From NCBI GenBank assembly GCA_030824575.1, contig JAVBXL010000022.1:1-64000 (forward strand): a stretch of 64,000 bases of DNA. Direction: 5' to 3'. Positions 34,726 through 56,636 of the stretch are shown here, piece after piece. The position numbers and the translations under genes were made by a program. The notes under the pieces are model-generated. The model made no database searches. It was not told where the DNA came from and was given only the letters and a program-made list of their open reading frames with translations. Origin of the DNA: a bacterium (GTDB taxonomy: Bacteria > Pseudomonadota > Alphaproteobacteria > Sphingomonadales > Sphingomonadaceae). Each line of letters begins with the position of its first letter. Positions within the stretch are counted from its first letter, which is position 1.

Positions 34726-37107
34726 TCAGAACTTCAGGCGGCTTTCCACGCCGATCACGCGCGGCTGCGCGACCGACTGGGCGTAGCCGCGATAGATGAC
34801 GCCATCATTGACCTGGCCATAGCGGGTCAGGTCGTTGCCGATGCCGGTGATCGCATATTTGTCGAAGATGTTGTTGGCGAACACCCCGATTTCATAAGCG
34901 TCAGTCTTGTAGCTGATGTTCGCGCGGCTCATCGTATAGGCCGGGATGCGCTCGCCGCCGCCACGCAGGCCGGCGCGGCTGTAGATGCCCCCGGTGTAGG
35001 TGGTGGTCCAGCCCAGTACGACCGCATTGTCACCCATGGGGATGTCATAGGTGATGCCGATCGCGCCGCTGTTCTTGGTCGAACCGGGCAGGCGATCGCC
35101 CGCGAAGGCACCAACCAGATCGCCACCGGCGACGGACAGCAAGGCAGGGACGTCTTCGGTCAGCTTCGCGTCGAGGTAGCTATAGTTGCCGCGGATGGAG
35201 AGGCCCTGGATCGGGCGCGCATCGAAGGAGAATTCGATGCCCTTCGATTCCGCCGCGCCGCCATTGGTGATGATGCCGATCGCGCCATTGACGGTCTGGC
35301 CGTCCAGCTGGATGCCGTCCCATTTGATCTTGAACGCCGACAGGCTCATCGACAGTTTGCGGTCGAACAATTGGGCGCGAACGCCGATTTCCGCATTTTT
35401 CACCTTGTCCGGGCCGTAGGATAGTTCGTTATCCAATGCGCAGAGATTCTGGCCTGCCGGGAGCGGCAGGACGCACGGCGCGACGCGGTTTACGCCGCCG
35501 ATGCGATAGCCCTTCGAATAGGTGCCCCACACCATCAGATCAGGCGTGATGTTGTAGGAAGTGTTGAATTTCCAAACCGTGCCGTCCTTGCCGGTCGAAC
35601 CGGCGCGCGAACGGAAATTGATGGCGGGGAAGGTCTGGAACAGCGGCAGGGCGGTGCCGCCCAGCACGTCGGCGGCATATTTGAAATAGCGGATACCGGC
35701 CGTAACCTGCCATTGCGGCGTGATCTTGAAGCTGCCTTCGCCGAAGATCGCCTTTTCGTCGAGCTTGGTCTTCACATAAGACGCATATTCGACTTCGTCT
35801 GGCCGGTTGATGCCCGCATAGGCCGGGTAGCCCGGTACGATCTCACGATAGTCGGAGTTAGTGTTCTGGCGATTCCAGAAGCCGCCTAAGACCCAGCTGA
35901 ACGGTCCGCCATGGGTGGAAACCAGCCGCACTTCCTGATTATATTGTTCGTCCGTACCACGCGATTGGGTGTAGCCGGAGAAGGCCGGGAACAGCTCATA
36001 ATCATAGTCGAGGTCGAGCAGCAGATCGGTGACGTCGATCGAGCTGCGGCGCTTCTTGTTAGTGTAAGCCGACACGAATATCGCCTGCGCCACGTCGGCG
36101 ATATTGCCCTGCACTTCGAGCGAGACGAGCTGCGAAGTACGCTTGGACGGCTCGGCGGAGCGCCATGGCGCTTCATATTTGCCTTCGCCAATCACGTTGC
36201 CGCCAGTTGCCTGACGACCCTGGGTCTTGGTCTGCTGGAAAGCGTAAGTGAAATAGGCCTGGAAATCTTCGCCCGTAAAACCGAGCTGGTTGCGGCTGGT
36301 GAAGGTCTTTTCGGAGTTGAGATCCTTGCGGCCTGCAAAGTTTGCCGCCTTGTCGGCGTCGGTGCCGGTGGGGTTGGCGACGCTGCCTGGCTGGGGCAGG
36401 GACGTGCCGGGCGACTTCAGGATAAAGGGATAATCGATGAAGCCGGGATCGTAATAGTAGCCGGTGACGGTGCGGAACGCGATCACGTCCTTGACGATCG
36501 GGATGTTGAGGACGCCGTAACCGACATAGCCGATACCCTTGCTATGGGCGACGTCGTAAGCGCGACCATAGACTTCGCCGCTGAACTGGGTCGGATCGGG
36601 ACGGTTGGGGATGTAACGGATCGCGCCCGCCAGCGTGCCCAGGCCGTAAAGCGTACCTTGTGGCCCCAGCAGCGTTTCGACGCGCTCCAGATCGATCAGC
36701 TTGTAATCGACATAGAGCGGCACATCGCCCAGATAGATGCCGATCGCGGTGTCGCTGTTGCCGCCGGTCGAACTGGTGTCGCTGGCCGACAGGCCGCGCA
36801 TCACGATGTTGGCCGCGCCATAGGGGCCGGTATCGGTGATGGTGATGCCTGGCGTGAAGGCGGCGATGTCGCGAATGTCATCGATCTGCTGGCTGGCCAG
36901 CTGTTCGGCGCCCACGGCCGAAATATTGATCGGCGTTTCCATCAGCGTGGTGCTGCGGCGGGTGCCGGTGACGACGATGACGTCGCCGTCCGCTTCGGCC
37001 GCTGCCTGCGCGGGCGCGGTCTGGGCCATGGCGGGCATGGCCGCCGCAGCGCTGGATATGATCGTCGCGGACAATAGTCCCAGCTTGAGCTTTGCGCGAT
37101 ACGACAT
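34726..37107 (-). CDS. TonB-dependent outer-membrane receptor
   Basis: 793 residues from the ATG at 37107 (AAGGGG 7 nt upstream). Sec signal MSYRAKLKLGLLSATIISSAAAAMPAMA, a TonB-box/plug region (VIVVTGTRRSTTLMETPINIS, IDDIRDIAAFTPGITITD), then a 22-strand barrel ending in aromatic Phe (IGVESRLKF). Ligand unknown. It is divergent from three arginase-fold genes across a 326-base region with a 17-bp inverted repeat motif, so a guanidino compound or amine is a reasonable but unproven substrate. The next genes in this direction are housekeeping, so the receptor belongs with the cluster to its right. Confidence 0.9.
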   Translation of the reverse strand: MSYRAKLKLGLLSATIISSAAAAMPAMAQTAPAQAAAEADGDVIVVTGTRRSTTLMETPINISAVGAEQLASQQIDDIRDIAAFTPGITITDTGPYGAANIVMRGLSASDTSSTGGNSDTAIGIYLGDVPLYVDYKLIDLERVETLLGPQGTLYGLGTLAGAIRYIPNRPDPTQFSGEVYGRAYDVAHSKGIGYVGYGVLNIPIVKDVIAFRTVTGYYYDPGFIDYPFILKSPGTSLPQPGSVANPTGTDADKAANFAGRKDLNSEKTFTSRNQLGFTGEDFQAYFTYAFQQTKTQGRQATGGNVIGEGKYEAPWRSAEPSKRTSQLVSLEVQGNIADVAQAIFVSAYTNKKRRSSIDVTDLLLDLDYDYELFPAFSGYTQSRGTDEQYNQEVRLVSTHGGPFSWVLGGFWNRQNTNSDYREIVPGYPAYAGINRPDEVEYASYVKTKLDEKAIFGEGSFKITPQWQVTAGIRYFKYAADVLGGTALPLFQTFPAINFRSRAGSTGKDGTVWKFNTSYNITPDLMVWGTYSKGYRIGGVNRVAPCVLPLPAGQNLCALDNELSYGPDKVKNAEIGVRAQLFDRKLSMSLSAFKIKWDGIQLDGQTVNGAIGIITNGGAAESKGIEFSFDARPIQGLSIRGNYSYLDAKLTEDVPALLSVAGGDLVGAFAGDRLPGSTKNSGAIGITYDIPMGDNAVVLGWTTTYTGGIYSRAGLRGGGERIPAYTMSRANISYKTDAYEIGVFANNIFDKYAITGIGNDLTRYGQVNDGVIYRGYAQSVAQPRVIGVESRLKF

Positions 37108-37433
37108 GGTGTTCCCCTTCATTTGCAATATTCTTCCCCGGTCGTAATCCTCTGCCTCGATCGGCCATCGCGCGCAGGTGACGCATCAATGGCACGGCGG
37201 GTGGCATGGACTGCCGCCTCTTGGTCTTTTGGCTCGGGAGGAAGTTATGGAGCGCGCAGGCGCACAAACATGGGGCATTTGACGTAGCATCGCCGCCTCT
37301 CCCGCCATGGGGGTGGTCCTACGTCAAACGCCCCATTGGGATGGCAGGGCTGGTCCGCCTACCCATCGGGTCGAAGGCGGATTTTCCGTCCCTTATTTGA
37401 CGCCTATGCCCGGTTGCGGGGCTGGAGAATGAC
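37108..37433. other. Intergenic control region between TonB receptor and arginase-like genes
   Basis: 326 bases without a gene. It holds the inverted TACGTCAAA-type motif described separately and both divergent promoters. No canonical sigma-70 boxes are placed at the right distance from the motif. Nothing else recognised. Confidence 0.6.
37271..37335. promoter_or_regulatory. Inverted 17-bp operator candidate in the TonB/arginase-like divergent region
   Basis: TGGGGCATTTGACGTAG (37271-37287) and CTACGTCAAACGCCCCA (37319-37335) are reverse complements at 16 of 17 positions with a 31-nt spacer. The same core CTACGTCAAA occurs before urtA (51816) and a shorter TACGTCA before qhpA (41781). Candidate binding site for a regulator of the cluster. 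Confidence 0.65.
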
Positions 37434-41778: not shown

Positions 41779-41794
41779 CATACGTCATTTGGGC
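41779..41794 (+). promoter_or_regulatory. TACGTCA motif upstream of qhpA
   Basis: CATACGTCATTTGGGC shares the TACGTCA core of the motif found in the TonB/arginase and urtA control regions, about 80 nt before the qhpA start. Weaker match (no following AAA), so low confidence. The 132-base gap suggests a promoter for the qhp genes. Confidence 0.35.
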
Positions 41795-41873
41795 AATAGC
41801 GCCATTCGAGCGCCTGCTTAGGCTTCGACATGCGCCCAGGGCAAATGGCCGGGCGTGAAGGGGGACATACAGG

Positions 41874-43598
41874 GTGAAGCGGCTTCCCGTCACGAAATTT
41901 GGCTTGGCTGCGCTGTTTTCCGCGTCGGTCGTGTTCGCCCAGGCCGATGGCGCCCCGAATGGCGCGACGCTGAAGGAAACGGAGGCGGGCATCCCTGTCA
42001 CCGATCCGCTCGTCACCGAAAAATGCAGCGCCTGCCATGCCGCCGATGCCAAGGGCAATTTGTCGCGGATCAGTTGGGTCCGCACCACGCCGGAGGGCTG
42101 GGCGCAGGCGATCAAGCGCATGGTGCGGCTGAACGGCCTCGCAATCACCCCGCAGGAAAGCCGGGCGATCGTGAAGTCGCTCTCCGCCTCGCACGGCCTA
42201 GCACCCGAAGAGGCCCGCACGGTCATGTATCTGCCCGAAAAGCGGATGCTCGATGAGGTGCTTCCCAACGAAACCATGCGCGGGGCCTGCGCCAGCTGCC
42301 ACAGCTTTGCCCAGCCCCTATCCTGGCGCCGGTCGAAGCTGGAATGGAAGACGTTGCAGGACTTGCACGTCGCCCTTTATTCGCAGGCCGATGCCCAATA
42401 TCGCCGCCCGGCCGAGGACAGCGAGCAGCCGGTCGGCCACGATCCCAAGGACAAGCTGACCCGCGGCGACTATGCGCTGACCTACATGCCCAAGGTTGCC
42501 CCGCTCCACACGCCCGAATGGGCCGCCTGGAGCGCGCGCCAGCGCAATCCGCGCCTGGCCGGCGAATGGCTGGTTGTCGCATGGGTGCCAGGCAAGGGCC
42601 GTTATGTCGGCGAACTTATCGTGGCACCGGGCAAGCAAACGGACGAGTTCACCACTAGCGCGACGCTGCGATCGCTGACGGACGGCGGCACGATCGGGCG
42701 GATCGGCACCGGCATCGTCTATGCCGGCTATAGCTGGCGCGGGTCGTCCACCGGCGCAGCCGCGGCCAAGCCAGATGACCTTAGCAGCGCCGCGCGCGAA
42801 GCGATGTGGTTCGCGCCCGACCAGCAAAGCGCTCAGGGTCGCTGGTTCTGGGGCGACTATCAGGAATTTGGCTATGACGTGAAACTGGTCCGCGCGACCG
42901 CTGCGCCTGCGATCCTTGCGGTGATGCCGGGGCCGGTGAAGGCTGGAACGAAGGGCGTGCAACTGCGCATCCTGGGCCATAATCTGCCTGCCTCGCTCAG
43001 CGCCGCCGATGTCGATCTGGGCGCAGGCGTGACGGTTACAAAGATCGTGTCCGCCAGCCCCAAGGAGCTTGTCGTTACCGCCGATGTCGCACCCGGCGCC
43101 TCGTCCGGCCAGCGCGACGTCGCCATAGCGGGCGCGGTGCTGGAGCAGGCCTTCCCGATCTTCCACAAGATCGACTATATCAAGGCGACGCCCGAAACCG
43201 CATTGTCGCGGTTGGGCGGTATCAAATTCCCCAAGGGCTATCAGCAATTCGAAGCGATCGGCTATGAAAACGGCCTCGACGGCAAGCCCAATACGTCCGA
43301 CGACATCGCCGTGGGTCCGGTCGCCGCCGACTGGACGATGCAGGAATTTCTGTCGGTCTTTTACGACGACGACACCAAATATGTCGGCGCGCTTAGTCCC
43401 ACCGCCTTCTTCACGCCCGCAGAAGAAGGCCCGAACCCGGCCCGCCGCTTCGGCCGCAACAATTATGGCGAAGTCTGGGTCGTCGCGACCGCGAAGACGG
43501 AGAAGGACAAGTTCGGCAAGCCGCTGAGCGCCCGATCCTACATGGTCGTGACCGTGCCTGCCTATCAGAAATGGGATCAACCGGAGGTGTCGCGATGA
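41874..43598 (+). CDS. qhpA: Quinohemoprotein amine dehydrogenase alpha subunit (diheme)
   Basis: 574 residues. Periplasmic: signal MKRLPVTKFGLAALFSASVVFAQA. Two c-type heme sites, CSACH (51-55) and CASCH (139-143), in an N-terminal cytochrome domain, followed by beta-sandwich domains with the heme chain passing electrons from the CTQ cofactor of the gamma subunit to cytochrome c. Oxidises primary amines to aldehyde and ammonia. Starts with GTG at 41874 after AAGGGGG. Same-strand, 132 nt downstream of the last arginase-like gene, so it may share transcription. qhpD overlaps its end by ATGA. Confidence 0.9.
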   Translation: MKRLPVTKFGLAALFSASVVFAQADGAPNGATLKETEAGIPVTDPLVTEKCSACHAADAKGNLSRISWVRTTPEGWAQAIKRMVRLNGLAITPQESRAIVKSLSASHGLAPEEARTVMYLPEKRMLDEVLPNETMRGACASCHSFAQPLSWRRSKLEWKTLQDLHVALYSQADAQYRRPAEDSEQPVGHDPKDKLTRGDYALTYMPKVAPLHTPEWAAWSARQRNPRLAGEWLVVAWVPGKGRYVGELIVAPGKQTDEFTTSATLRSLTDGGTIGRIGTGIVYAGYSWRGSSTGAAAAKPDDLSSAAREAMWFAPDQQSAQGRWFWGDYQEFGYDVKLVRATAAPAILAVMPGPVKAGTKGVQLRILGHNLPASLSAADVDLGAGVTVTKIVSASPKELVVTADVAPGASSGQRDVAIAGAVLEQAFPIFHKIDYIKATPETALSRLGGIKFPKGYQQFEAIGYENGLDGKPNTSDDIAVGPVAADWTMQEFLSVFYDDDTKYVGALSPTAFFTPAEEGPNPARRFGRNNYGEVWVVATAKTEKDKFGKPLSARSYMVVTVPAYQKWDQPEVSR

Positions 43599-45043
43599 CC
43601 GTCATGCAGGCACCCGCCTATCGCCGGGCCGAATATCACGGCTTCCAGGCCGGTGGCAGCCACTTTGTCTATCTGGTGAGCGCCGGCGCGATCTTCGAGA
43701 TCGACGCGGATGTCCGCGCGGTGTTGACCCGATTGGATGGGCAGGAACTGTCCCATGCTGCGCTGGTGCGCGAATTGTCGAGCGACGGGACCGATCCGGC
43801 CGATGCCGAAGCGCTGGTCCGCGAACTGCGCGCCGCCCGGCTGATCCAGCTTGGCGCGGCCGCGCCGGTGATGCCACAGGCGCCGCCCGCCGATTTCCCG
43901 CTCCAGGCGTTGGTGCTGAACGTCACCAACCAGTGCAACCTCGCTTGCACCTATTGCTACGAGTTCGGCGCGGACAAGATCGCGACGCCGGCCGGCAAGC
44001 CCAAATATATGACGCTGGAAACGGCGCAGGCTTCGGTGGATCTGCTCATCAGAGAAGCCGTCGGCCGCAAGGCGGTGCATATCACCTTCTTCGGCGGCGA
44101 AACGCTGATGAATTTCAAGCTGCTGCGCGATGTAGTGGACTATGCCAACACGGCCACTGCCGCGGCGGGGAAGGGGATCACCTACAGCCTCACCACCAAC
44201 GCGACGCTGCTGACGCCGGAGATCGTGACCTTCCTGTCCGACAACCGGATCGGCGTGACCGTATCGATGGACGGCCCGCCCGAATTGCAGGACAAGCATC
44301 GCGTCTATAAAAATGGCAAGGGCAGCTATGCGGTGATCGAACCGCGCCTGCGCACGCTGATCGCCCATCACAAGACCCGCGCCATCACCGCGCGCGTAAC
44401 GCTGACCGAAGGCGTCACCGACGTCGTGCGCATCTTCCGCCATTTGAAGGACGATCTGGGCTTCCACGAAGTCGGCTTTGCGCCAGTGACGACGGGGGAA
44501 GAGCGGGCTTATTCGCTCGACGATAATGGCATGGACAGCGTGCTGGCGCAGTTCAGCTTGCTGGCGGACGAATGGCTGGAATATGCGCTGCGCGGCGAAT
44601 CGCATGGCTTCACCAATGTCAGCGAGACGATCAGCGAGCTGATATCGGGCGTCAACAAATCGCATCCCTGCGGCGCGGGATTGGGCCTGATGGGCGTCAG
44701 CCCGTCGGGCGACCTGTCCCCCTGCCACCGCTTTACCGACGCCGACACGCACAGCATGGGCCATGTCTCCAGCGGCATCGACCGCGCCAAACAGGGCGCG
44801 TTCCTGAAAAAAGGTCATGTCGAGGCCAAATATGACTGCCAGAGCTGCTGGGCGCGGCCGCTCTGCGCGGGCGGATGCCATCATGAAGCGTTCGTGCGCT
44901 ATGGCGACACCGGCCACGCCAACCTCCATTATTGCGACTGGATAAGGCAATGGACCGACACCTGCCTGCGCATCTACGGCGTGCTGGCGGTGCAGAATCC
45001 CGGCTTCCTCGAACGCTTCGCTGAACGAAAGGGCCTGTCATGA
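43595..45043 (+). CDS. qhpD: Radical SAM/SPASM peptide-modifying enzyme QhpD
   Basis: 482 residues from the ATG at 43595 (GGAGG just before). Radical SAM motif CNLACTYC with Cys114, Cys118 and Cys121 (CX3CX2C), and a C-terminal SPASM region with CQSCWARPLCAGGC. The N-terminal 90 residues are PqqD-like. In Paracoccus, QhpD forms the thioether crosslinks (Cys to Asp/Glu) in the gamma subunit. Its ATGA overlap with both qhpA and qhpC supports this role. Confidence 0.93.
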   Translation: MTVMQAPAYRRAEYHGFQAGGSHFVYLVSAGAIFEIDADVRAVLTRLDGQELSHAALVRELSSDGTDPADAEALVRELRAARLIQLGAAAPVMPQAPPADFPLQALVLNVTNQCNLACTYCYEFGADKIATPAGKPKYMTLETAQASVDLLIREAVGRKAVHITFFGGETLMNFKLLRDVVDYANTATAAAGKGITYSLTTNATLLTPEIVTFLSDNRIGVTVSMDGPPELQDKHRVYKNGKGSYAVIEPRLRTLIAHHKTRAITARVTLTEGVTDVVRIFRHLKDDLGFHEVGFAPVTTGEERAYSLDDNGMDSVLAQFSLLADEWLEYALRGESHGFTNVSETISELISGVNKSHPCGAGLGLMGVSPSGDLSPCHRFTDADTHSMGHVSSGIDRAKQGAFLKKGHVEAKYDCQSCWARPLCAGGCHHEAFVRYGDTGHANLHYCDWIRQWTDTCLRIYGVLAVQNPGFLERFAERKGLS

Positions 45044-46614: not shown

Positions 46615-47607
46615 ATGAAGACTATCGCCATCCGGGGCAGCGGCATCGCCGCCAAAGGATGCGCGCATATATTGGCTGGCGCGGGCTTTCGGGTCGCAAT
46701 CGAAGAACGCCGCCGCCCGTCCGTGCCGACGATCATGCTGAGCGATCCGGCCCTGCGCCTGATCCGCGGCGTGTTCGATCGACCGGACCTGTTTGCCGAC
46801 CGGCCGCGCGTAAAGCAGCGGCTGGTCGCTTGGGGTGGGGCACAAGTGACGGTGCCCCATGACGCGGCGCTGGCGTCGGAGGATCAGGTTCAGGCGGCCT
46901 TGCCATCCATCCCAGCGTCCGAAACAGGCCCGGTTGACTTCACGATCCATGCCGCGCCGCCCGTGCCGCTGGGCGAGATGCACATCTTTGGCGAACGCCA
47001 TGCCGTCGCGGCCAAGGTGAAATTGCGTGACCCCGCCTGCATCGAAGAGGCGCGGATCGAAGCCGTGGCGGCAGGTTGGCTCTATCTAGTGCCGGCAGAA
47101 ACGGGTTTTGGCTGGCTTTTGGGCGTAGGCGGCTTGCTCGACAAGCTGTTGGGGCAGAGCGCGCTAATCGCGCCGGTCGTGGATGCGGTCGGCGCGACAT
47201 CCACGCCCTTTCCGGCTGCGCCGCGCCTGCAATTGCCGCTTTATGGCGATAACTGGCTGGCCTGTGGCACGGCGGCTGTGGGCTTCGACCCGATTTGCGG
47301 CGACGGCACCGCGCAGTCGGTGCGGGAGGCGATATTGGCGACGGCGGTCGTGATGTCCATGGCAGATGGCGGCGATCGCGCCGCGATGCTCACCCATTAT
47401 CAATCAATGCTGATTGCGGCGATGCGCCGCCATCTGCTGCTCTGCGCGCAATTTTACGCAAATGGCGGGCGGGGCGATTGGTGGCGCGCGCAGCATGACG
47501 CGCTGATGGAGGGGCATCATATGTGCACCGGTTTGCTGGCTAGGCTGCCCGAACCACGCTTTATGCTGGACGGTTTCAGGCTGGTGCCGCGGCAGGCGGC
47601 GGCATGA
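46615..47607 (+). CDS. qhpG: FAD-dependent monooxygenase QhpG (CTQ Trp oxidation)
   Basis: 330 residues. Dinucleotide-binding start TIAIRGSGIAAKGCAHILAGAGF with a GxGxxG-like turn and a distal GFDPICGDGTAQSVREAI (GD motif that contacts FAD), as in tryptophan-halogenase-like monooxygenases. In Paracoccus, QhpG hydroxylates the gamma-subunit Trp to begin CTQ formation. Overlaps qhpF by ATGA. Confidence 0.88.
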   Translation: MKTIAIRGSGIAAKGCAHILAGAGFRVAIEERRRPSVPTIMLSDPALRLIRGVFDRPDLFADRPRVKQRLVAWGGAQVTVPHDAALASEDQVQAALPSIPASETGPVDFTIHAAPPVPLGEMHIFGERHAVAAKVKLRDPACIEEARIEAVAAGWLYLVPAETGFGWLLGVGGLLDKLLGQSALIAPVVDAVGATSTPFPAAPRLQLPLYGDNWLACGTAAVGFDPICGDGTAQSVREAILATAVVMSMADGGDRAAMLTHYQSMLIAAMRRHLLLCAQFYANGGRGDWWRAQHDALMEGHHMCTGLLARLPEPRFMLDGFRLVPRQAAA

Positions 47608-49307
47608 GCGGCCAGCCCCCACCCCCCATCGCCGATTGGGGCACCTACAAACGCCTCACTCCATTTTTGCGACCCTATCGCGGCGCACTGCTGGTCGTGC
47701 TCGCAATCAGCCTCGTTTCGACCATGCTCGGCCTCGCCCAGCCCTATCTCTCCAAGCTGATGATCGACCAGGCGCTGCTCAAGCGCGACATGACCGCGCT
47801 GGTCGACATCGCCGCGATCATGATCGCCGTCACCATAGCGGGCTTCGCCGTCAATATCCTCGCCAGCTATCGTTATGTCTCCCTTTCCGCCGCGATGCTC
47901 TACGACATTCGCGCCGCGCTGCTCCGCCATCTTCAGACCCTGTCGCCCCGTTTCTACGGCAGCTTTCGGCTAGGCGACCTCGTGTCCCGCATGAACAGCG
48001 ACGTCAGCGACGTGCAGCGCATCGCCTCCGACACTTTGCTGTCGGTGGTCAGCAACCTGCTGTTCTTCGTCGGCTGCGTAGCGATGATGCTCTGGCTCGA
48101 CTGGCGGCTCTTCCTAGTGAGCGTCGTGCTGGTCCCGGCCAGCCTGGCGACGTTCAGCTATTATCAACGCCGCCTGACCGCACTGACCCGCGACATGCGG
48201 GAGCGGGGGGCGGACCTGGGCAGCCTGTTGGTCGATACCGTCATGGGCATGCGCGTCGTCGCCTCGCTGCGCGCGGGCGAGCATGAGGTGGGTCGGTTCA
48301 AGACCAAAAACGACGCCTTCGTCGCGTCGATGCTGCGGATGCAGGTCGCGTCCTTCATGACCGGTGCGCTGCCCGGCACGCTGATGACGGCGGCGACTTC
48401 TGCGGTGATCCTCTATGGCGGCTGGCGGATCATTCATGACGGGATGAGCATCGGTACGCTCGTCGCGTTCATGACCTATCATATGCGGCTGCTCTCACCG
48501 ATCCAGACGCTGATGGGGCTGACATCCGGCCTAGCGTCGGCGCGGGTGTCGCTGGGGCGCATCTTCGAACTGTTCGACACGAAGCCCGATGTCGTGGAGC
48601 GCAGCGAGGCCCTGCCCATGGCACGCGCGGGCGAGATGCGCTTCGAGCAGGTCGCGATGCGCTATGATCGCGATGCCGTACTGCGCGACATCGACCTGAC
48701 GATCCCGGCGGGCAGCCTAAGCGCCATCCTTGGTCCCAGCGGCGTCGGCAAATCGACCATGGCCGATCTGATGGTCCGCTATCTCGATCCCGACAGCGGC
48801 CGCATCACGGTCGATGGCCGCGACCTGCGCGACTACGCCCTCGATGATCTGCGGCGGGAGATCATCCTGGTCGATCAGGCCCCCTATCTGTTCAACGACA
48901 CGATCGCGGCGAATATCGGGTTCGCCATGGTGGATGTGTCTCAAGAGGCGATCGCGGCGGCTGCCCACGCCGCCGGGCTGGACGGCTTCATCGAAAAACT
49001 GCCCGAAGGCTATGAAACGCGCGCGGGTGAGCGCGGCATGGCGTTATCGGCGGGCGAGCGGCAACGGGTGGTGCTGGCCCGCGCCTTACTACGCCAGCCC
49101 AGCATCCTGATCCTTGACGAACCGACATCGGCGCTGGACGGCGACACCGAACAACTGGTGGCGGGACGCTTGCGCGATGCGCTGCCCCACGCCACGATCA
49201 TCGTCATCACCCACAAGCCTGCACTGGCGCGCATGGCCGACCATATCATCACGCTGGCGCAGGGACGGGCGCAGATGACGGCGCGCGCAGAGCCTGTCGA
49301 TGCCTGA
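47604..49307 (+). CDS. qhpF: ABC transporter with fused permease and ATPase, exporter QhpF
   Basis: 567 residues. N-terminal six-helix exporter domain (about 25-310), C-terminal ATPase with GPSGVGKST, signature LSAGERQRVVLARALLRQ, Walker B ILILDEPTSALDG and switch His in VITHKPA. Half-transporter that should work as a dimer to move the modified gamma subunit (after leader removal) to the periplasm. Context in the qhp operon, between qhpG and qhpE, gives its role. Confidence 0.88.
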   Translation: MSGQPPPPIADWGTYKRLTPFLRPYRGALLVVLAISLVSTMLGLAQPYLSKLMIDQALLKRDMTALVDIAAIMIAVTIAGFAVNILASYRYVSLSAAMLYDIRAALLRHLQTLSPRFYGSFRLGDLVSRMNSDVSDVQRIASDTLLSVVSNLLFFVGCVAMMLWLDWRLFLVSVVLVPASLATFSYYQRRLTALTRDMRERGADLGSLLVDTVMGMRVVASLRAGEHEVGRFKTKNDAFVASMLRMQVASFMTGALPGTLMTAATSAVILYGGWRIIHDGMSIGTLVAFMTYHMRLLSPIQTLMGLTSGLASARVSLGRIFELFDTKPDVVERSEALPMARAGEMRFEQVAMRYDRDAVLRDIDLTIPAGSLSAILGPSGVGKSTMADLMVRYLDPDSGRITVDGRDLRDYALDDLRREIILVDQAPYLFNDTIAANIGFAMVDVSQEAIAAAAHAAGLDGFIEKLPEGYETRAGERGMALSAGERQRVVLARALLRQPSILILDEPTSALDGDTEQLVAGRLRDALPHATIIVITHKPALARMADHIITLAQGRAQMTARAEPVDA

Positions 49308-50001
49308 TCCGATCCGTATCGCCATCATCGACAGTGGCGTGCATCCCGAACATCCGCATATCGACGCAACCCGTCTGTTGCCCGGCATCGCCATAGCGGG
49401 CGACGGTGCGATCAACGAGTGCGACACCATCGACGCCCTTGGCCATGGCACCGCCGTCACCGCCGCCATACAGGGGCAGGCACCCGACGCGCTATGCCTG
49501 CCGATCCGCGTGTTCCATGATGCCTTGCGCACCACCGCGCGCGCCTTGGTGATCGCGATCGATTGGGCCGTGGCGGCCAAGGTGGACATCATCAACCTTA
49601 GCCTTGGTACGGTGAACCCGGCGCATCGCGACCTGTTTGCGGCGGTCGCCGATAGGGCGCTGGCGGCGGGCGTGCTGATCGTCGCCGCGCGGGAGGCGGA
49701 AGGTACACCCTGCTATCCGGGCAGCCTGGCCCAGGTGCTGGGCGTATCGCTCGACTGGGACTGCCCGCGCGAAGACCATGTCGTGCGCGATGGGATCATC
49801 TTTGCATCCGGCCATCCCCGGCCGATCCCTGGCGTGCCGCAGCGGCGCAACCTCCATGGTGTCTCGTTCGCTGTCGCGAATATGAGTGGCATCGTGGCGC
49901 GGGGCGGGCGAGCGGCGATCGCCCGCTATCGCGATCAGGCGACGCCGAACCCCGCGACCCGCTCGACCATCCAGAAGCAGCCGATCGCGCCGACTGCATA
50001 A
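49300..50001 (+). CDS. qhpE: Subtilisin-like leader protease QhpE
   Basis: 233 residues, no signal peptide, so cytoplasmic. Catalytic Asp in IIDSGVHPEH, His in ALGHGTAVTAAI and Ser in HGVSFAVANMSGIVA complete the S8 triad. In Paracoccus QhpE cuts the leader from the crosslinked gamma subunit. Overlaps qhpF by 8 nt. Its last 67 bases overlap in antisense the end of the reverse-strand hupE-like gene. Confidence 0.88.
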   Translation: MPDPIRIAIIDSGVHPEHPHIDATRLLPGIAIAGDGAINECDTIDALGHGTAVTAAIQGQAPDALCLPIRVFHDALRTTARALVIAIDWAVAAKVDIINLSLGTVNPAHRDLFAAVADRALAAGVLIVAAREAEGTPCYPGSLAQVLGVSLDWDCPREDHVVRDGIIFASGHPRPIPGVPQRRNLHGVSFAVANMSGIVARGGRAAIARYRDQATPNPATRSTIQKQPIAPTA

Positions 50002-50930
50002 AGCGCGGCGACCCGCACTGGCGTCGCCAGCGATACTGCGCGCAATCCGGCCAGCGCCGCCAGGATCGCACCAACGAACAGCAATTGTCCTGCCTCCACA
50101 CCGATGTTGAAGAAGACCAGCGCCGGCAGCTTCTCGCCAGCCTGCACGCCCAGTTCGCCCAGCGCCGTCGCAAAGCCCAATCCATGCAGCAGGCCGAACA
50201 GCGATACGACGATCGCCTGCCGCCGGAACGCAAAGGCCTGTCCCTTGCCCACTAATAATGCTTCCCGCGCCATGAAGGCGATGGACAGGGCGATGGCGGC
50301 CTCGACCGGCGGCACGGGCACGCGCACCAATTCGAAGAAGGCGATGGCCAGCGATATGGAGTGGCCCGCGGTAAAGGCGCTCACCAGCCAGAGCAGGTCG
50401 CGCCCGCGCGCCAGCAGCGCCAGGCACAGGACGAAGGCGAGGTGATCCCAGCCCAGCCAGATATGCCAAACGCCCTGCGCCAGAAATTCCGGTGCAATCT
50501 GGTCGATCGGCCGCGCCGTCGCGGCGGTTTCGCCGACCGGTACGGTAATGCCTTGCGCGTCGCCGGTCAGGCTGCGATCGACCTGCCCGCCCATGACATT
50601 GGTGACGAAGCGGCCGCCATCGGCCTTCCACGGCGTCTGGATGGTATCGCCAGCGGCAAAGGGCCGGTCGCACGCCAGCTCAAACGCATATTGCGCCCGT
50701 CCGCTGCCGGTCTGGCGGCTCATGCCGGTCTGGCGACAGCCGTCGGGCAGGGTCAGCGGCGCGGGCTGGCCCACCGCTTCGGGCACGGCGGCGGTGAATT
50801 CATATGTGTTCGGGTCTTCGCCGCGGGTCAGGGCGAAGTCGGCGGACAGGAAGATATCGGCCATCGCCGTGCCTGGCGCCAGCGCCGCCAGCGCGAGCAG
50901 CAGCAGGGCGAACAGCTTATTCCTCGACAT
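49935..50930 (-). CDS. HupE/UreJ-like membrane protein
   Basis: 331 residues. Sec signal MSRNKLFALLLLALAALAPG with TAMA cleavage, a periplasmic domain of about 130 residues, then 5-6 membrane helices with WLGWDHLAFVLCLALL and FTAGHSISLAIAFFEL, the conserved metal-binding HupE/UreJ motifs. Relatives are proposed nickel or metal permeases; the arginase-type enzymes nearby need Mn or Ni, so metal supply is a fair guess. It is the second gene of a reverse-strand pair with the parvulin gene. Confidence 0.82.
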   Translation of the reverse strand: MSRNKLFALLLLALAALAPGTAMADIFLSADFALTRGEDPNTYEFTAAVPEAVGQPAPLTLPDGCRQTGMSRQTGSGRAQYAFELACDRPFAAGDTIQTPWKADGGRFVTNVMGGQVDRSLTGDAQGITVPVGETAATARPIDQIAPEFLAQGVWHIWLGWDHLAFVLCLALLARGRDLLWLVSAFTAGHSISLAIAFFELVRVPVPPVEAAIALSIAFMAREALLVGKGQAFAFRRQAIVVSLFGLLHGLGFATALGELGVQAGEKLPALVFFNIGVEAGQLLFVGAILAALAGLRAVSLATPVRVAALYAVGAIGCFWMVERVAGFGVA

Positions 50931-51780
50931 CGAACTTCTCCTTGAGGCCCGCCAGCGCCTGTTGAATGGCGGCATTGCTGTGGGCGATCATATAATCCTG
51001 CCGCACCTGGTCCTTGATCGCGGGAAAGGGGATCATGGCGGACGCGATGCTCTCACTCTTCTTCACGAAATGCCAGCCACGCGGGGATGGGATCGGGCCG
51101 ATCCACCGGCCTTCCGGCGCGCTCTTGAGCGTATCGACGAAGGGCTGGCCGAAAATGCCGCGGACCATGGAATCGCCATAACGGGGAAAGTCGCGGCCCA
51201 GCCAGAAATCCTCGCCGCCGATCGTCTCGCCCGCATTGAGCTGCGCCAGCAGGACGCCCGCGTCGGCGGGCTTTTGTTGCCGGAAAATCTGGGTGAAGCT
51301 GGTGCGCGGTTCCGCGCGATACAGGTTCAGATGCGCCGAATAATGATCGACCAACTGCTCCTCGCTCGGTTCGGGCGGCGCACCGGCGATCAGGTAGCGT
51401 ACCTTGTCGACCAGCCGCCTGCGCGTCTCGCCATCGGTCAGGTGCATGTTGCGGTCGATCGCTTCGCGGAACAGCAATTCGTCGGCCAGATATTCGGCCT
51501 TCAGCCGAGCGCGGTCCTGCGCCGTCGCCTTGCGCCCGGTCAGCGTCTCCAGGTCGGCGACCTGCGCCTGCTCGATCTCCGGTGTGAAGATGACGGGCGG
51601 CTTTTCGAAATGCTGCACGATCTGATAACCGCCGAACAGCGCAACGCCGGCCAGCAGAAAGGCGAAGAGCGGATCGCGCGCCACCCGGCCGATCCCCTGC
51701 ATCGGATTGCGCCATGGACGCGGCAACGTCGCCGCCTCGCCCGTCGCCATAATATCCATGGATTCCGCCCCGTTCGCCAT
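50917..51780 (-). CDS. Membrane-anchored peptidyl-prolyl isomerase (parvulin type)
   Basis: 287 residues from the ATG at 51780. A single membrane helix (about residues 35-56, PLFAFLLAGVALFGGYQIV), then an SurA/PrsA-like helical region and a parvulin rotamase domain (GEDFWLGRDFPRYGDSM...GPIPSPRGWHFVKK). It should help folding of exported proteins. Divergent from urtA across a 140-base region that holds the TACGTCAAA motif; it leads the pair with hupE. Confidence 0.85.
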   Translation of the reverse strand: MANGAESMDIMATGEAATLPRPWRNPMQGIGRVARDPLFAFLLAGVALFGGYQIVQHFEKPPVIFTPEIEQAQVADLETLTGRKATAQDRARLKAEYLADELLFREAIDRNMHLTDGETRRRLVDKVRYLIAGAPPEPSEEQLVDHYSAHLNLYRAEPRTSFTQIFRQQKPADAGVLLAQLNAGETIGGEDFWLGRDFPRYGDSMVRGIFGQPFVDTLKSAPEGRWIGPIPSPRGWHFVKKSESIASAMIPFPAIKDQVRQDYMIAHSNAAIQQALAGLKEKFDVEE

Positions 51781-51815
51781 GTCCGCAATATTAGAGGGAA
51801 GCGGTGCGGCCAAGC

Positions 51816-51832
51816 CTACGTCAAATGACGCA
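51816..51832 (+). promoter_or_regulatory. TACGTCAAA operator candidate upstream of urtA
   Basis: CTACGTCAAATGACGCA, 14 of 17 positions identical to the right arm of the motif at 37319, 89 nt before the urtA ATG and 36 nt before the divergent parvulin start. Supports joint control with the TonB/arginase genes. Confidence 0.6.
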
Positions 51833-51920
51833 TACGGGGGCTAGGCGGCTTTCCATAGCCTTTAGGCACCAGATTGCTGCGGTGCCGCATTCGGTCCTGC
51901 CCCAGGGAGACCTTCACATC

Positions 51921-53135
51921 ATGATCCGTTCCAGGCTGCTTTTGCTTGCCACTTCCGCCTGCGCCCTGGCGCTGACCGCCTGTTCGGGCGGCGGCGGCAA
52001 CGCCAGCGCGCCTGCGGGCGATACTGTCTCGGTCGGTGTTCTCCAGTCGCTGACCGGCACGATGGCGATCAGCGAGATCACCGTGAAAAATGCCGAGATG
52101 CTGGCGATCGAAGAGATCAACGCGGCCGGCGGCGTGATGGGTAAGCAGATCAACGCCTTGGTCGAGGATGGCGCGTCCGACCCATCCACTTTCGCGCAGA
52201 AGGCGTCCAAGCTGATAGAGAGTGACGGCGTTTCGACCGTCTTCGGCGGCTGGACGTCCGCCAGCCGCAAGGCGATGCTGCCGGTGTTCGAACGGACCAA
52301 AAACCTGCTCTGGTATCCGGTGCAGTTCGAGGGCAATGAATGTTCGCCCAACATCATGTATTCGGGCGCACAGCCCAACCAGCAGGCGCTGCCCGCGCTG
52401 GAATGGGCCGTGGCGCAAGGACATAAGAGCTTTTTCCTCGTCGGCTCCGACTATGTCTATCCCCGCACCGCCAATTTGATCCTGAAAAAGCATATCGAAA
52501 AGGGCGGGATGCAGGTGCTGGGCGAAGCCTATGTGCCTTTGGGCGGCACGGACTTTTCCGGCGTCATCGCGAAGATCGCGCAGGCCAAGCCCGCGATGAT
52601 CATCAACACGCTGAACGGCGACAGCAATGTGGCCTTCTTCAAGCAGTTGCAGGCCGCGGGCATCAATACCAAGACCATGCCGGTCATGTCCTTCTCCATC
52701 GGCGAGCAGGAAGCGCAGGCGATGGGCGCAGGCCTGGTCGAGGGTAGCTATGCCGCCTGGAATTATTTCCAGAGCCTGCCGAGCGAAGCCAACAGCAAGT
52801 TCATTGCGGCCTATAAGGCGAAGTTCGGCAAGGACGCGGCGATTACCGACCCGATGGTCCATGGCTATCTGGACGTCTATGCCTGGAAGGCGGCGGTGGA
52901 GAAGGCCAAGAGCTTCGACCCGCAAGCGGTGCGCAGGGCTGCGGCGTCGCTCGGCGGTTTCGACACGCCGATGGGCAAGGTCAGCTTCGCGGCCAACCAG
53001 AGCCTTGTACAGAAAGCCTATATCGGCAAGCTGAAGGCCGACGGGCAGTTCGAGATCATCGCCGACAGCGGCAAGGACATTGCGCCGGAGCCGTATGACG
53101 CGCTCGCCTTCCCGGGCAAGACCTGCAAGCTTTGA
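51921..53135 (+). CDS. urtA: Urea ABC transporter substrate-binding protein UrtA (lipoprotein)
   Basis: 404 residues. Lipobox LTAC with Cys21 makes it a lipid-anchored receptor. The ligand-binding domains follow UrtA/FmdD: VGVLQSLTGTMAISE, WYPVQFEGNECSPNIMYSGAQPN and the C-terminal part with AYKAKFGKDAAITDPMVHGY. The segment YPVQFEGNECSPN is characteristic of urea and short-amide receptors. First gene of the urt operon. A repeat element (53151-53249) separates it from urtB. Confidence 0.88.
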   Translation: MIRSRLLLLATSACALALTACSGGGGNASAPAGDTVSVGVLQSLTGTMAISEITVKNAEMLAIEEINAAGGVMGKQINALVEDGASDPSTFAQKASKLIESDGVSTVFGGWTSASRKAMLPVFERTKNLLWYPVQFEGNECSPNIMYSGAQPNQQALPALEWAVAQGHKSFFLVGSDYVYPRTANLILKKHIEKGGMQVLGEAYVPLGGTDFSGVIAKIAQAKPAMIINTLNGDSNVAFFKQLQAAGINTKTMPVMSFSIGEQEAQAMGAGLVEGSYAAWNYFQSLPSEANSKFIAAYKAKFGKDAAITDPMVHGYLDVYAWKAAVEKAKSFDPQAVRRAAASLGGFDTPMGKVSFAANQSLVQKAYIGKLKADGQFEIIADSGKDIAPEPYDALAFPGKTCKL

Positions 53136-53259: not shown

Positions 53260-54147
53260 ATGGACGCGCTTTTCCTCAACCAACTGTTCAACGGCGCCTC
53301 GCTGGCCTCGCTCTATCTGCTCGCCGCGCTGGGCCTTGCGCTCTCATTCGGCCTGATGCGCGTCATTAACATGGCGCATGGCGAAATGCTGATGCTGGGT
53401 GGCTATCTCGCCTGGATGACACTGCTCGTCGTGCCGGGCGCGCTTGGGATCATCCTGGCCATTCCGGTCGCTTTTGTCGGCGCGGCGGCGATGGGCGGCC
53501 TTATCCAGTCCACACTGATCCGTCGCCTTTCCGCTCGGCCGCTCGACACGCTGCTTGCGACCTGGGGCGTCAGCCTGATCCTGCAACAGGGCGCACGCGA
53601 CCTGTTCGGCGCGGTCGGCGTGGAGGTGCGTGCGCCTGAGTGGCTGACCGGCAGCTTCACCCTGGCAGGCGTGACCCTGCCATCGGCGCGCCTGTTCATC
53701 ATCCTGATCGCAGTGCTTGTGCTGGGCGGCCTTGCGCTGCTGCTGCTCAAGACCCGGATCGGCCTGCTGGTCCGCGCCGTCAATCAGGACCGGATGATGG
53801 CCTCCGCATCCGGCATCGACGTCAAGCGCGTGGATTTCACTATCTTCTGCCTCGGTTCGGGCGTGGCGGGCCTGGCCGGCGTCATGCTGGCGCTGCTCGG
53901 CCCGGTGACGCCCAATGTCGGGCAAAGCTATATCATCCCCGCCTTCCTCGTCGTGGTGATGGGCGGCCTGGGCAGCATCGTCGGCACCACGGCTTCGGCC
54001 ATCATCCTTGGCCTGTTCGCCGCGCTCGCCCAGATCTTCGTCGATGTCAGCGTCGCACAGATGCTGCTGCTCGTCTTCGTCATCCTCTTCATCCAGGTCC
54101 GCCCGCAAGGGGTGATCGCCGTAAAGACCCGCCAGCTCGATGCCTGA
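53260..54147 (+). CDS. urtB: Urea ABC transporter permease UrtB
   Basis: 295 residues. Multi-helix branched-chain-permease-type protein (LivH/UrtB family) with GLALSFGLMRVINMAHGEMLMLGGYLAW and the conserved GLGSIVGTTASAIILGL. Inner membrane. Overlaps urtC by 8 nt. Confidence 0.9.
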   Translation: MDALFLNQLFNGASLASLYLLAALGLALSFGLMRVINMAHGEMLMLGGYLAWMTLLVVPGALGIILAIPVAFVGAAAMGGLIQSTLIRRLSARPLDTLLATWGVSLILQQGARDLFGAVGVEVRAPEWLTGSFTLAGVTLPSARLFIILIAVLVLGGLALLLLKTRIGLLVRAVNQDRMMASASGIDVKRVDFTIFCLGSGVAGLAGVMLALLGPVTPNVGQSYIIPAFLVVVMGGLGSIVGTTASAIILGLFAALAQIFVDVSVAQMLLLVFVILFIQVRPQGVIAVKTRQLDA

Positions 54148-55168
54148 CCTGTCCCGCCTTGATCCGCTGAAACCGGTCCTACCCTGGCTATTGCTGGCGC
54201 TGGGATTGGTGGCGCCCTTTGCGCTGTCGGCCTATGACCTCAACCTGCTCGCCCGCTTCATGGCGATGGGCATCCTTGCGCTCGGCCTCGTCCTCATCTG
54301 GGGCCATGGTGGGATATTGAGCCTGGGGCAGGGGGTCTTTTTCGGCTTGGGCGGCTATGCCATCGCCCTGCATATGAAGCTCGCCGATCTGCCGGACGGC
54401 GAAATCCCCGATTTCATGGTCTGGAGCGGCCGGGACAGCCTGCCCCTCTGGTGGGCGCCCTTTGCCAGCCCCGCCTTCACCATCGCCGCGATCTTGATCG
54501 TACCGACGCTAGTGGGCGCGCTCTTTTCCTGGGCGGTCTTTCACCGGCGCGTTGGCGGCACCTATTTCGCGCTGATCACGCAGGCGCTGGCGCTGGCCTT
54601 CTCCACCCTTATCATCAGCCGGCAGGATGTGACCGGCGGCTTCAACGGTCTCACCGACTTCTACTCCGTCTTCGGCTTCGGCCTCGCCAGCCCCGGAACC
54701 GGATTGGGCCTCTACTGGGTGACACTGGCGATCCTGTGCGTCGCTTTCGTGGCGCTGCGCTGGCTGCTGGCCTCGCGCTTTGGCATATTGCTGCGCGCGG
54801 CGCGCGACGGGGAGAATCGCGTGCGCTTCCTCGGCTACAGCCCTACGCCCTTCAAGGTCGTTGCCTTCGCCATCGCCGCGATGCTGGCCGGGGTCGGCGG
54901 CGCGCTTTTCACCCTCCACGCGGGCGTGGTGTCGCCAGCCTTGATCGGCGTCGTGCCCTCGATCGAAATGGTCGTCTGGGTCGCGATCGGTGGCCGATAC
55001 AGCCTGGCCGGGGCGATCGTCGGCGCGCTGCTGGTCAATCTTGCACGCGACGCCGTGTCCAGCGCCTTCCCCGAATTGTGGCTTTATCTCATGGGCGCAC
55101 TCTTCATCTTCGTCGTCACGCTGCTGCCACGTGGCCTTGCCGGTCTGGTCAAGAGGAAGGCGGCATGA
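54140..55168 (+). CDS. urtC: Urea ABC transporter permease UrtC
   Basis: 342 residues. LivM/UrtC-type permease with about ten helices; GHGGILSLGQGVFFGLGGYAIALHM is typical. Pairs with UrtB to form the channel. ATGA overlap with urtD. Confidence 0.9.
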   Translation: MPDLSRLDPLKPVLPWLLLALGLVAPFALSAYDLNLLARFMAMGILALGLVLIWGHGGILSLGQGVFFGLGGYAIALHMKLADLPDGEIPDFMVWSGRDSLPLWWAPFASPAFTIAAILIVPTLVGALFSWAVFHRRVGGTYFALITQALALAFSTLIISRQDVTGGFNGLTDFYSVFGFGLASPGTGLGLYWVTLAILCVAFVALRWLLASRFGILLRAARDGENRVRFLGYSPTPFKVVAFAIAAMLAGVGGALFTLHAGVVSPALIGVVPSIEMVVWVAIGGRYSLAGAIVGALLVNLARDAVSSAFPELWLYLMGALFIFVVTLLPRGLAGLVKRKAA

Positions 55169-55923
55169 GCGGGTCAGCCATTTCCGATCTGCTGCTCAGT
55201 GTCGATGGCGTCACCATCGACTATAGCGGTTTCAAGGCGCTCGACAATTTCAGCATGACGCTCAACCGCGGCGAAACCCGCGTGGTGATCGGTCCCAATG
55301 GCGCGGGCAAGTCGACGCTCTGCGATACGATCATCGGCCGCGTCCGCCCCAGCCAAGGGCGCGTCCTGTTCAAGGGTGAAGAAATCCAGCGCCTGCCTGA
55401 GCAACAGATCGTCGCGCGCGGAATCTGTCGCAAATTCCAGGCGCCCGGCGTCCTGCCGACGCTCAGCGTGCGGGATAATCTGGCGCTCGCGGCCCGCAAG
55501 GACAGGCGCTGGTGGAAGAGTTTCGGCACCGGTATCCCGGCGGACGAAAAGCTGGCGGTGGAAGAAGCGCTGGAAAGCGTTGGCCTGACCCATCGGGCTG
55601 CCGTAGAGGCCGGGACGCTCGCCCATGGCGAGAAGCAATGGCTGGAGATTGCGATGGTGATGGCGACCGGGGCGGAATTGCTGCTGCTGGACGAGCCAAC
55701 CGCGGGCATGGGGCCGGCCGAAACCAGCCGCACCGCGCAACTGATCCTGGGTCTGGGCGACAGCCGCACCGTGCTGGTCATCGATCATGATATGAGCTTT
55801 GTCGAACAACTCGCCGCGCCCGTCACCGTCATGCACCAGGGCAAGTTCTTGAAACAGGGCAGCATCGCCGAAGTCCGCGCCGATGCAGAAGTCGCCGCCG
55901 TCTATCTTGGCCACACAGCATGA
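55165..55923 (+). CDS. urtD: Urea ABC transporter ATP-binding protein UrtD
   Basis: 252 residues from the ATG in the urtC stop. Walker A GPNGAGKST, ABC signature in the UrtD form LAHGEKQWLEIAMVMA, Walker B LLLLDEPTAGMGP, switch His VIDHDMSFVE. This signature distinguishes urea from amino-acid transporters. ATGA overlap with urtE. Confidence 0.92.
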   Translation: MSGSAISDLLLSVDGVTIDYSGFKALDNFSMTLNRGETRVVIGPNGAGKSTLCDTIIGRVRPSQGRVLFKGEEIQRLPEQQIVARGICRKFQAPGVLPTLSVRDNLALAARKDRRWWKSFGTGIPADEKLAVEEALESVGLTHRAAVEAGTLAHGEKQWLEIAMVMATGAELLLLDEPTAGMGPAETSRTAQLILGLGDSRTVLVIDHDMSFVEQLAAPVTVMHQGKFLKQGSIAEVRADAEVAAVYLGHTA

Positions 55924-56636
55924 GCGCGCCGCTGATCGAAATCACTGCCCTATCGAGCGCCTATGGCCAGAGCCAGGTTCTGTGGGACGTGGACCTGACG
56001 CTGGAGCGGGGGCAGGTGATGGCTTTGATCGGCCGCAACGGCGTGGGTAAGACGACGCTGCTGCACGCGATCATGGGCACGCGCCCGTCGGCGGGCGGCA
56101 CGATCCGTTTCGACGGGCAGGAGATTACGAAGCTGCCCGCGCACAAGCGCTCGCGCGCCGGCATCGGCTTCGTGCCGCAGGGGCGACATATCTTCCCGCA
56201 ACTGACCGTCATGGAAAATCTGGAGACGGGCCTGTCCGCGCTCGCTGGCCGGGGTAAAGGCGCGGCAAAAGTGCCGCAACATATCTTCGACCTGTTTCCC
56301 AAGCTGTACGATATCCGCTCCCGCGCCGCCGGTTTCCTGTCCGGCGGCGAGCAGCAGCAATTGGCCATTGGTCGCGCGCTCGCCGGGGAGCCGAGCCTGC
56401 TGCTGCTCGACGAACCGACCGAGGGTATCCAGCCGAATGTCGTGCAGCAGATCGAGGCGGCGCTCGTCCATGTCCGCGACGAACTGGGCATGACCGTGCT
56501 GGTGGTCGAACAATATCTCGACTTCGTCTGGCGCTTCGCCGACCGATACTGCGCGATGCAGAACGGCCGGATCATTCGCCAAGGCAGCATTGCCGAAGAA
56601 AGCGCGAAGGATGTCGCGCACTTGGTCCAGATTTAG
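55920..56636 (+). CDS. urtE: Urea ABC transporter ATP-binding protein UrtE
   Basis: 238 residues. Walker A GRNGVGKTT, signature LSGGEQQQLAIGRALAG, Walker B LLLLDEPTEGIQP. Second ATPase of the importer. The frame ends in the stop region of the convergent DUF2147 gene. No urease genes are in the window, so the fate of imported urea depends on genes elsewhere. Confidence 0.92.
   Translation: MSAPLIEITALSSAYGQSQVLWDVDLTLERGQVMALIGRNGVGKTTLLHAIMGTRPSAGGTIRFDGQEITKLPAHKRSRAGIGFVPQGRHIFPQLTVMENLETGLSALAGRGKGAAKVPQHIFDLFPKLYDIRSRAAGFLSGGEQQQLAIGRALAGEPSLLLLDEPTEGIQPNVVQQIEAALVHVRDELGMTVLVVEQYLDFVWRFADRYCAMQNGRIIRQGSIAEESAKDVAHLVQI

Follow-up and report, generated by a model that had tools for sequence, protein, structure and literature searches.

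The DNA analyzed here, a stretch of 64,000 nucleotides (positions 1-64,000 of contig JAVBXL010000022.1, assembly GCA_030824575.1; referred to as the window), stems from a Sphingobium-like genome of the Sphingomonadaceae and carries a block of genes coding for a TonB-dependent receptor, three arginase-fold proteins, a quinohemoprotein amine dehydrogenase (QHNDH), a HupE-type membrane protein with a parvulin, and the urea transporter UrtABCDE. We regard this block, with a probability of about 0.58, as the main locus of a regulon for the nitrogen of guanidino compounds, built around an exported two-subunit ureohydrolase and equipped for the recovery of urea and amine. The catalytic (alpha) chains P0001 and P0003 would pair in the periplasm with P0002, a beta chain poor in metal ligands, and this enzyme, whose metal may be Ni or Mn, would cleave a substituted guanidine to urea and a primary amine. 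The urea would enter via UrtABCDE and be split by the cytoplasmic urease of a second locus bearing the same control motif, and the amine would be oxidized in the periplasm to yield electrons and ammonium, either by the divergent QHNDH or, in other members, by an amine dehydrogenase with a tryptophan tryptophylquinone (TTQ) cofactor. HupE and the anchored parvulin would most likely help to fold the exported enzyme and supply it with metal, and a hybrid kinase/LuxR pair encoded next to the urease may regulate the system through the motif; the cargo and direction of HupE, like the cargo of the TonB receptor, are assigned here by inference.

Results

As judged from searches with Pfam and NCBIfam profiles, all five parts that the original prediction had placed side by side are present, in the order TonB receptor, three arginase-fold genes, divergent QHNDH locus, HupE/parvulin, and UrtABCDE. 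The block is more than a chance neighborhood, because the motif TACGTCAWAYRNCNYAT has six exact matches in the 4.94-Mb genome (223 contigs) and these occur only at two arginase loci, three in the block and three at an arginase-urease locus on contig C42. Given that the pattern was built from the very sites of the block and its relatives, what counts as informative is that the rest of the genome has no other exact match; allowing one mismatch adds one genomic site, and a reversed control pattern also gives one at this stringency. Shared control motifs had been proposed at the outset, and the core TACGTCAAA indeed occurs exactly three times in the window, at 37286 (minus strand), 37320 (plus strand), and 51817 (plus strand). 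The corresponding sites are TACGTCAAATGCCCCAT on the TonB side (37270..37286, minus strand), TACGTCAAACGCCCCAT on the arginase side (37320..37336, plus strand), and TACGTCAAATGACGCAT between the parvulin gene and urtA (51817..51833, plus strand). A degenerate and presumably regulatory site, TACGTCATTTGGGCAAT (41781..41797, plus strand), lies before qhpA in the gap that follows the P0003 gene; it is identical in seven of nine sequences, with one change in L030 and four in L031, the flanking bases are partly conserved too, and no terminator-like site was found on the plus strand of this gap.

The window together with the fetched loci L018-L101 contains 74 motif matches, a number inflated by overlapping or near-identical loci (65 are distinct), and the reversed pattern is absent from L018-L101 (1.48 Mb). 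In Pacificimonas (L020), the core is flanked by a mauB-like gene and an alpha arginase gene transcribed divergently, and in genome G030 (L026) the mauB-like and arginase genes stand head to head, with the core 36 bases beyond the arginase start, within the mauB-like frame as called but ahead of the first ATG of that frame. The second locus of the window's own genome, on C42, codes for a parvulin-HupE pair, a molybdenum-enzyme pair, an alpha-type arginase, a urease, and a pair of hybrid kinase and LuxR-type regulator whose domains were read on the Pacificimonas homologs. This kinase/LuxR pair beside the urease is the likely, presumed regulator acting through the motif. Control by a guanidine riboswitch was rejected, as no Rfam match was found in the window and the only kind found in seven partner loci was 5_ureB_sRNA, over ureC. 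In L018, L020, L026, and L039, these matches overlie the ureC coding sequence and may reflect coding similarity rather than a small RNA.

The arginase-fold proteins fall into two kinds of chains. A scan of a genome collection for the long arginase, of which the best 80 matches were kept, yielded 75 loci and favors close relatives; from these loci, nine further fetched stretches, and the window, an alignment of 151 proteins was built, leaving out eight matches for being incomplete or below 440 amino acids in length (among them a short ureohydrolase of the own genome on C42) and keeping two of 432. A few genes among the 151 rows were fetched twice, and 103 alpha and 43 beta chains are distinct by their last 380 residues. 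P0001 (37434..38903, plus strand; Pfam Arginase, 241 bits) and P0003 (40269..41741, plus strand; 243 bits) are 79% identical, and each contains all six metal ligands (H, D, H, D, D, D); P0001 also has the catalytic His and Glu. The original prediction had pointed to one arginase-fold protein with a Sec signal, which is P0002 (38903..40252, plus strand; 161 bits). The signal is present, but the protein is probably a dead partner subunit rather than an exported hydrolase: it lacks two metal ligands (HNHDDS), its catalytic His is replaced by Asp (H311D, in the numbering of P0003 used throughout), and it carries T402R.

The same division runs through the family. The full set of HDHDDD plus His311, Thr402, and Glu412 is found in 107 of the 151 proteins, which we classify as catalytic alpha chains; His311 and Glu412 presumably correspond to His141 and Glu277 of arginase, going by the alignment. 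All of the remaining 44 beta chains show D390S and H311D, and 43 show T402R (Gln in one). Between one and four of the six ligands are lost in each, and Glu412 is additionally gone in seven. In a quick tree with outgroups on very long branches and no resolved root, the beta chains form one side of a single branch (support of 100 in the Shimodaira-Hasegawa-like approximate likelihood ratio test). Every beta gene in the fetched loci (43/43) lies within at most 300 bp of an alpha gene on the same strand, and alpha genes occur with no beta gene at 43 of 83 fetched loci. The beta chains are thus likely pseudoenzymes kept as a conserved partner subunit, and alpha and beta may assemble into a two-subunit enzyme. 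More tentatively, and as judged from the sequence, the Arg and Asp of beta (T402R, H311D) would fill the dead pocket as a built-in substrate mimic. The AlphaFold model of P0003 (mean predicted local distance difference test score, pLDDT, of 86.8) has a low-confidence helix at residues 10-21, followed by poorly predicted residues, then a helical extension modeled with confidence from about residue 50, and then the arginase fold, which matches 3nip, 3niq, and 3nio; the model of beta is less certain (mean pLDDT 81.5).

Ureohydrolases are generally treated as cytoplasmic enzymes. The original proposal of extracytoplasmic ureohydrolases found support at family level, in that the proteins bear signals. 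Signals were counted in 147 rows, excluding a fused beta frame (L022) and the three window proteins: a hydrophobic N-terminal segment is present in all 42 beta chains and in 99 of the 105 alpha chains, and Lys or Arg precedes it as a basic n-region in 42/42 and 81/105, respectively. As judged from their sequences, the arginase-fold proteins of this family, which extends well beyond the sphingomonads into Alpha- and Gammaproteobacteria, are therefore largely signal-bearing. Seven beta chains are lipoprotein-like (L039, L041, L046, L059, L062, L067, and L070), and the pattern also matched two further beta and three alpha chains whose signals are ordinary in appearance. In the clade of the window, the first 43 codons are constrained, with proportions of nonsynonymous differences (pN) of 0.01-0.18 vs. 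synonymous ones (pS) of 0.22-0.57 and pN below pS in 10 of 10 comparisons, so the long N-terminal form is translated. With a hydrophobic N-terminus but no basic n-region, the window's own two catalytic chains are probably, but not certainly, exported. The accessible part of one open PMC paper marks its agmatinase as having no signal peptide, and a search confined to the open PMC literature yielded no description of the present family among the texts consulted. A Candidatus Marinimicrobia metagenome-assembled genome (L035) contains a sphingomonad-like alpha gene (62%), for which contamination of the bin is likely.

Among partner genes at the 75 listed loci, the most frequent were those for parvulin (36) and HupE (33), followed by TonB receptors and TPR-sulfotransferases (20 each), urease alpha (13), UrtA (12), QHNDH (9), and TTQ operons (2). 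The sulfotransferase gene (L018:1813-3378, with a homolog at 20 of 75 loci) often stands between the HupE and TonB receptor genes. Co-inheritance was examined in 199 Sphingomonadaceae genomes, five of which, from five genera, have the long arginase (G078 was not counted, its match being 34% identical at E 8e-36 with a stop in frame); the tests ignore phylogeny. UrtA scored over its cut-off in 5/5 long-arginase genomes vs. 4/194 others (p 5e-8; 9/199 overall), the TTQ light chain in 5/5 vs. 15/194 (p 6e-6; 20/199 overall), and the HupE subfamily, at an identity of at least 50%, in 5/5 vs. 0/194 (p 4e-10), with HupE relatives of any strength (E 1e-20) in 73 of the 199. HupE/parvulin belongs to the core of the system and goes with the hydrolases. 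The check for co-inheritance in sphingomonads, which the original prediction had set itself, therefore came out strongly for urt, HupE, and the TTQ amine dehydrogenase and only modestly for qhp (2/5 vs. 1/194), and neighborhoods and co-inheritance together uphold the link of the ureohydrolases to periplasmic amine dehydrogenases and urea uptake. A further set of 49 arginase genomes was drawn from 50 of the 75 loci chosen for variety, leaving out L071 and including several close Sphingobium relatives; the TTQ light chain was found in 30 of them, QHNDH in 16, and either in 31. A sample of the phylum was discarded as a co-occurrence test, since only the own genome among its 299 has the long arginase, and was used just to set a base rate: the TTQ light chain exceeds its cut-off in 10/299, own genome included.

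The QHNDH locus had been called complete, which is correct for its set of genes but not for a typical sequence. Over their cut-offs score the alpha subunit (qhpA, 41874..43598; TIGR03908, 563.6 bits vs. 274) with its two CxxCH heme motifs, CSACH and CASCH, the radical SAM maturase (qhpD, 43571..45043; TIGR03906, 653.7 vs. 453), the gamma subunit (qhpC, 45040..45402; NF037958, 135.9 vs. 50), and the subtilisin-like protease QhpE (49300..50001; NF049966, 206 vs. 165). The beta subunit (qhpB, 45399..46502; TIGR03907, 63.7 vs. 223) and a short, divergent QhpG-like flavoprotein (46615..47607; NF049967, 53.9 vs. 240) are recognizable yet far under their equivalog cut-offs, and the qhpF-like ABC exporter (47604..49307; Pfam ABC) is named by its position; all seven genes are on the plus strand. 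The qhp operon of Paracoccus and Pseudomonas, as far as the accessible text of PMC7876137 goes, likewise has alpha, beta, gamma, QhpD, QhpE, an ABC exporter, and a QhpG-like protein in one run, but the block differs in its divergent beta and QhpG, in its position behind an arginase operon, and in the AraC-type qhpR, which was not seen among the 20 open reading frames (ORFs) scanned between 30.6 and 58.2 kb, the portion of the window covered for qhpR.

In other genera, the arginases stand next to a different amine dehydrogenase. MauB/mauA-like genes lie beside them in G030, Pacificimonas, and Alteromonas; the arginase run of Alteromonas confluentis adjoins a TTQ operon, and in S. spermidinifaciens a TTQ operon, the kinase/LuxR pair, urease, two arginase groups, a TonB receptor, and QHNDH share about 40 kb of one contig. 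Compared with the methylamine dehydrogenase equivalogs, four small subunits of linked operons reach 177-196 bits vs. 197 and three large ones 137-169 vs. 454, and by these profile matches the operons code for TTQ-type (methylamine-dehydrogenase-like) enzymes. Methylamine as a proven product was rejected, because the enzymes stay under the cut-offs. A Novosphingobium RL4 plasmid carries the core block, including six motif matches, and has neither qhp nor a second alpha gene there (37-kb stretch). Because of this block and of the genera with a TTQ operon beside their arginases, QHNDH is an add-on in the window's clade and one of two alternative amine-oxidation modules, so that the link to amine oxidation expected for it in the joint system stands but its place as a fixed part does not. 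The idea of spread by plasmids was dropped, as a single one of 72,556 plasmid records, that of a Novosphingobium megaplasmid, matched at E 1e-50. A TTQ operon is likewise present in the own genome (L112, C108:4000-22000), near a different TonB receptor and a TPR-sulfotransferase gene. At several loci (L018:5368-8903, L032, L048, L051, L055, L076, and L121), a molybdenum-hydroxylase pair (MoCoBD large and 2Fe-2S small subunit) lies between arginase and parvulin genes, at most of them beside an orphan gene of about 270 amino acids, and L018 has motif matches at 5262 and 8737; this pair possibly represents an aldehyde-oxidizing step.

The best solved relatives of the alpha chains are guanidinobutyrase (3nio) by sequence and 3nip and 3niq by fold, with guanidinases and guanidinopropionase also near. 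P0001 and P0003 stay below the NCBIfam cut-offs for agmatinase (best 192 bits vs. 302, and 142 vs. 174) and for arginase and formimidoylglutamase (best 124 vs. 228, and 152 vs. 229). An identity as guanidinase was rejected: the active-site Trp, which is W313 in the N. inopinata enzyme according to the accessible text of PMC11410670, is replaced by Thr at position 402 in 107 of 107 alpha chains. This replacement and the failure to reach any cut-off for agmatinase, arginase, or formimidoylglutamase disfavor guanidine itself and favor, no more, a substituted guanidine as the likely substrate.

Discussion

Several observations weigh against an exported ureohydrolase as the center of a common regulon, the most serious of which concern export. 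The basic n-region is missing despite a hydrophobic start in 18 of 105 alpha chains, 16 of them in the window's clade, and its lack in P0001, P0003, and their orthologs is the main weakness of the proposal; six further alpha chains show no hydrophobic start at all, and the start codons were set by a home-made score rewarding hydrophobic N-termini and Shine-Dalgarno-like bases, so that the export counts lean toward signals. The catalytic chains of the window's clade may instead be cytoplasmic and act on an imported substrate, with QHNDH separately consuming environmental amines and beta alone being exported for another role, and initiation at an internal Met (position 43 in P0001, 42 in P0003) could yield a form devoid of the hydrophobic stretch. 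The constraint on the first 43 codons, in which that stretch is kept, the ordinary-looking signals in most of the family, and the tight coupling of alpha and beta genes render this unlikely. As to the beta chains, the seven of 44 that have lost only one of the six ligands may still bind some metal.

Shared control through nickel is another way to read the block: the TonB receptor, HupE/parvulin, urease, and arginase-fold enzymes would then form a metal regulon with the amine dehydrogenases as passengers. The urease at the second motif locus and the HupE subfamily, which tracks the arginases exactly, fit such a regulon, and the accessible part of PMC11399263 describes a HupE gene directly downstream of Ni-dependent metformin hydrolase genes as a nickel uptake transporter. 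However, UrtA and the TTQ light chain, which are not metal genes, track the arginases too, and the motif core is found at the mauB-like/arginase gene pairs of Pacificimonas and G030, so that we consider a pure metal regulon quite unlikely.

The adverse points on the side of the partners are that 30 of the 75 listed loci have none of seven partners (the sulfotransferase not counted), 15 of them on stretches of at least 18 kb, for which short length is no excuse; that both kinds of amine dehydrogenase are absent from 18 of the 49 arginase genomes; that QHNDH is a modest associate (p 0.0015, or 0.04 when the own genome is omitted); that the TTQ operon of the own genome carries no regulon motif; and that the TTQ chains and QHNDH beta score under their equivalog cut-offs. 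A loose neighborhood in which arginase, urea, and amine genes cluster through nitrogen limitation and share no common substrate would fit the loci with none of the seven partners and the variable membership of the others, many of which lack QHNDH, TTQ enzymes, urease, or Urt, but it is very unlikely in view of the closed six-site motif in the genome and of two different types of periplasmic amine dehydrogenases beside arginases in different genera.

The block of the original prediction is confirmed, and its interpretation is partly supported: the logic holds with three corrections, namely an alpha/beta enzyme with a probable pseudoenzyme, QHNDH as one of two alternative oxidation modules, and HupE/parvulin as a core part. 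The ligand loss of P0002, the occurrence of the family beyond the sphingomonads, and the second motif-bearing arginase-urease locus on C42 go beyond it. More tentatively, and at somewhat less than even odds, these enzymes may form a separate class of two-subunit ureohydrolases of the periplasm, assembled and loaded with metal outside the cytoplasm with a dedicated HupE/parvulin pair and running an extracytoplasmic guanidino pathway, which would pass electrons via quinone-cofactor amine dehydrogenases to the respiratory chain and deliver nitrogen as urea and ammonium. If true, guanidine chemistry, a job usually placed inside the cell, would move to the periplasm, and genes that probably carry agmatinase annotations would gain a role; how metals are loaded outside the cytoplasm would become a testable problem, and the amines used by quinone-cofactor amine dehydrogenases would have a likely physiological origin.

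Among known systems, the metformin hydrolases MefH, MetCaCb, and MfmAB resemble the block. As far as the accessible parts of PMC11399263 and PMC11271267 show, they are encoded by tandem genes of the ureohydrolase family, one with six ligands and one ligand-poor, with a HupE gene downstream, flanking hypA/hypB genes, and urea genes in the Aminobacter operon; in these parts, the word "periplasm" occurs in neither report and "signal peptide" not in the first. The tandem of catalytic and ligand-poor genes typical of such heteromeric enzymes is seen for all beta genes of the fetched loci, each adjacent to an alpha gene (43/43). In contrast, the metformin hydrolase chains in the PDB comprise 348-378 amino acids vs. 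medians of 490 and 463 in the block's family, MetCb has five of six ligands changed vs. one to four in beta, and the PDB profile search gave 111-120 bits for metformin hydrolase vs. 213 for guanidinobutyrase. The guanidine hydrolases GdmH of Synechocystis and Nitrospira inopinata, going by the accessible text of PMC11410670, share the arginase fold, six ligands, and catalytic His and Glu, but have Trp in place of the Thr of the alpha chains, and the proteins of the block have a longer helical N-terminal extension. Guanidinobutyrase and guanidinopropionase (3nio, 3nip) share Thr402 with the alpha chains, but measure 319-326 amino acids and lack their N-terminal extension. Neither is known to be exported.

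The remaining genes complete the layout of the block. The TonB-dependent receptor (34726..37107, minus strand; Pfam TonB barrel, 123 bits, and plug) is divergent from the arginase operon. The HupE/UreJ-type membrane protein (49935..50975, minus strand; HupE_UreJ_2, PF13795, 147 bits) has a signal-like N-terminus and the parvulin (50917..51813, minus strand; a peptidyl-prolyl isomerase, Rotamase_2, PF13145, 41 bits) one N-terminal membrane segment, both read by eye. On the plus strand follow urtA (51921..53135; TIGR03407, 522 bits vs. 493), urtB (53260..54147; TIGR03409), urtC (54140..55168; TIGR03408), urtD (55174..55914; TIGR03411, 304.7 bits vs. 304.1), and urtE (55920..56636; TIGR03410), all five above their NCBIfam cut-offs, UrtD by a margin of 0.6 bit. 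Although the genome is flagged as 8.93% contaminated, a chimera at the window locus is disfavored, because named genomes show an identical gene order: the contig of Sphingobium psychrophilum, the nearest named relative among the matches listed (P0003 99% identical), agrees over the fetched stretch from the TonB gene to parvulin, and Sphingobium sp. TCM1 likewise has the block from TonB to parvulin. The gap between urtA and urtB contains a stretch (53140-53250) that is palindromic by eye and resembles an intergenic repeat element. Just downstream of urtE, a T2SSF (type II secretion F) gene was found at 57185-58174 on the minus strand, and the minus-strand ORFs that follow it, up to 63794, may, as a guess from the layout, code for further type II secretion proteins.

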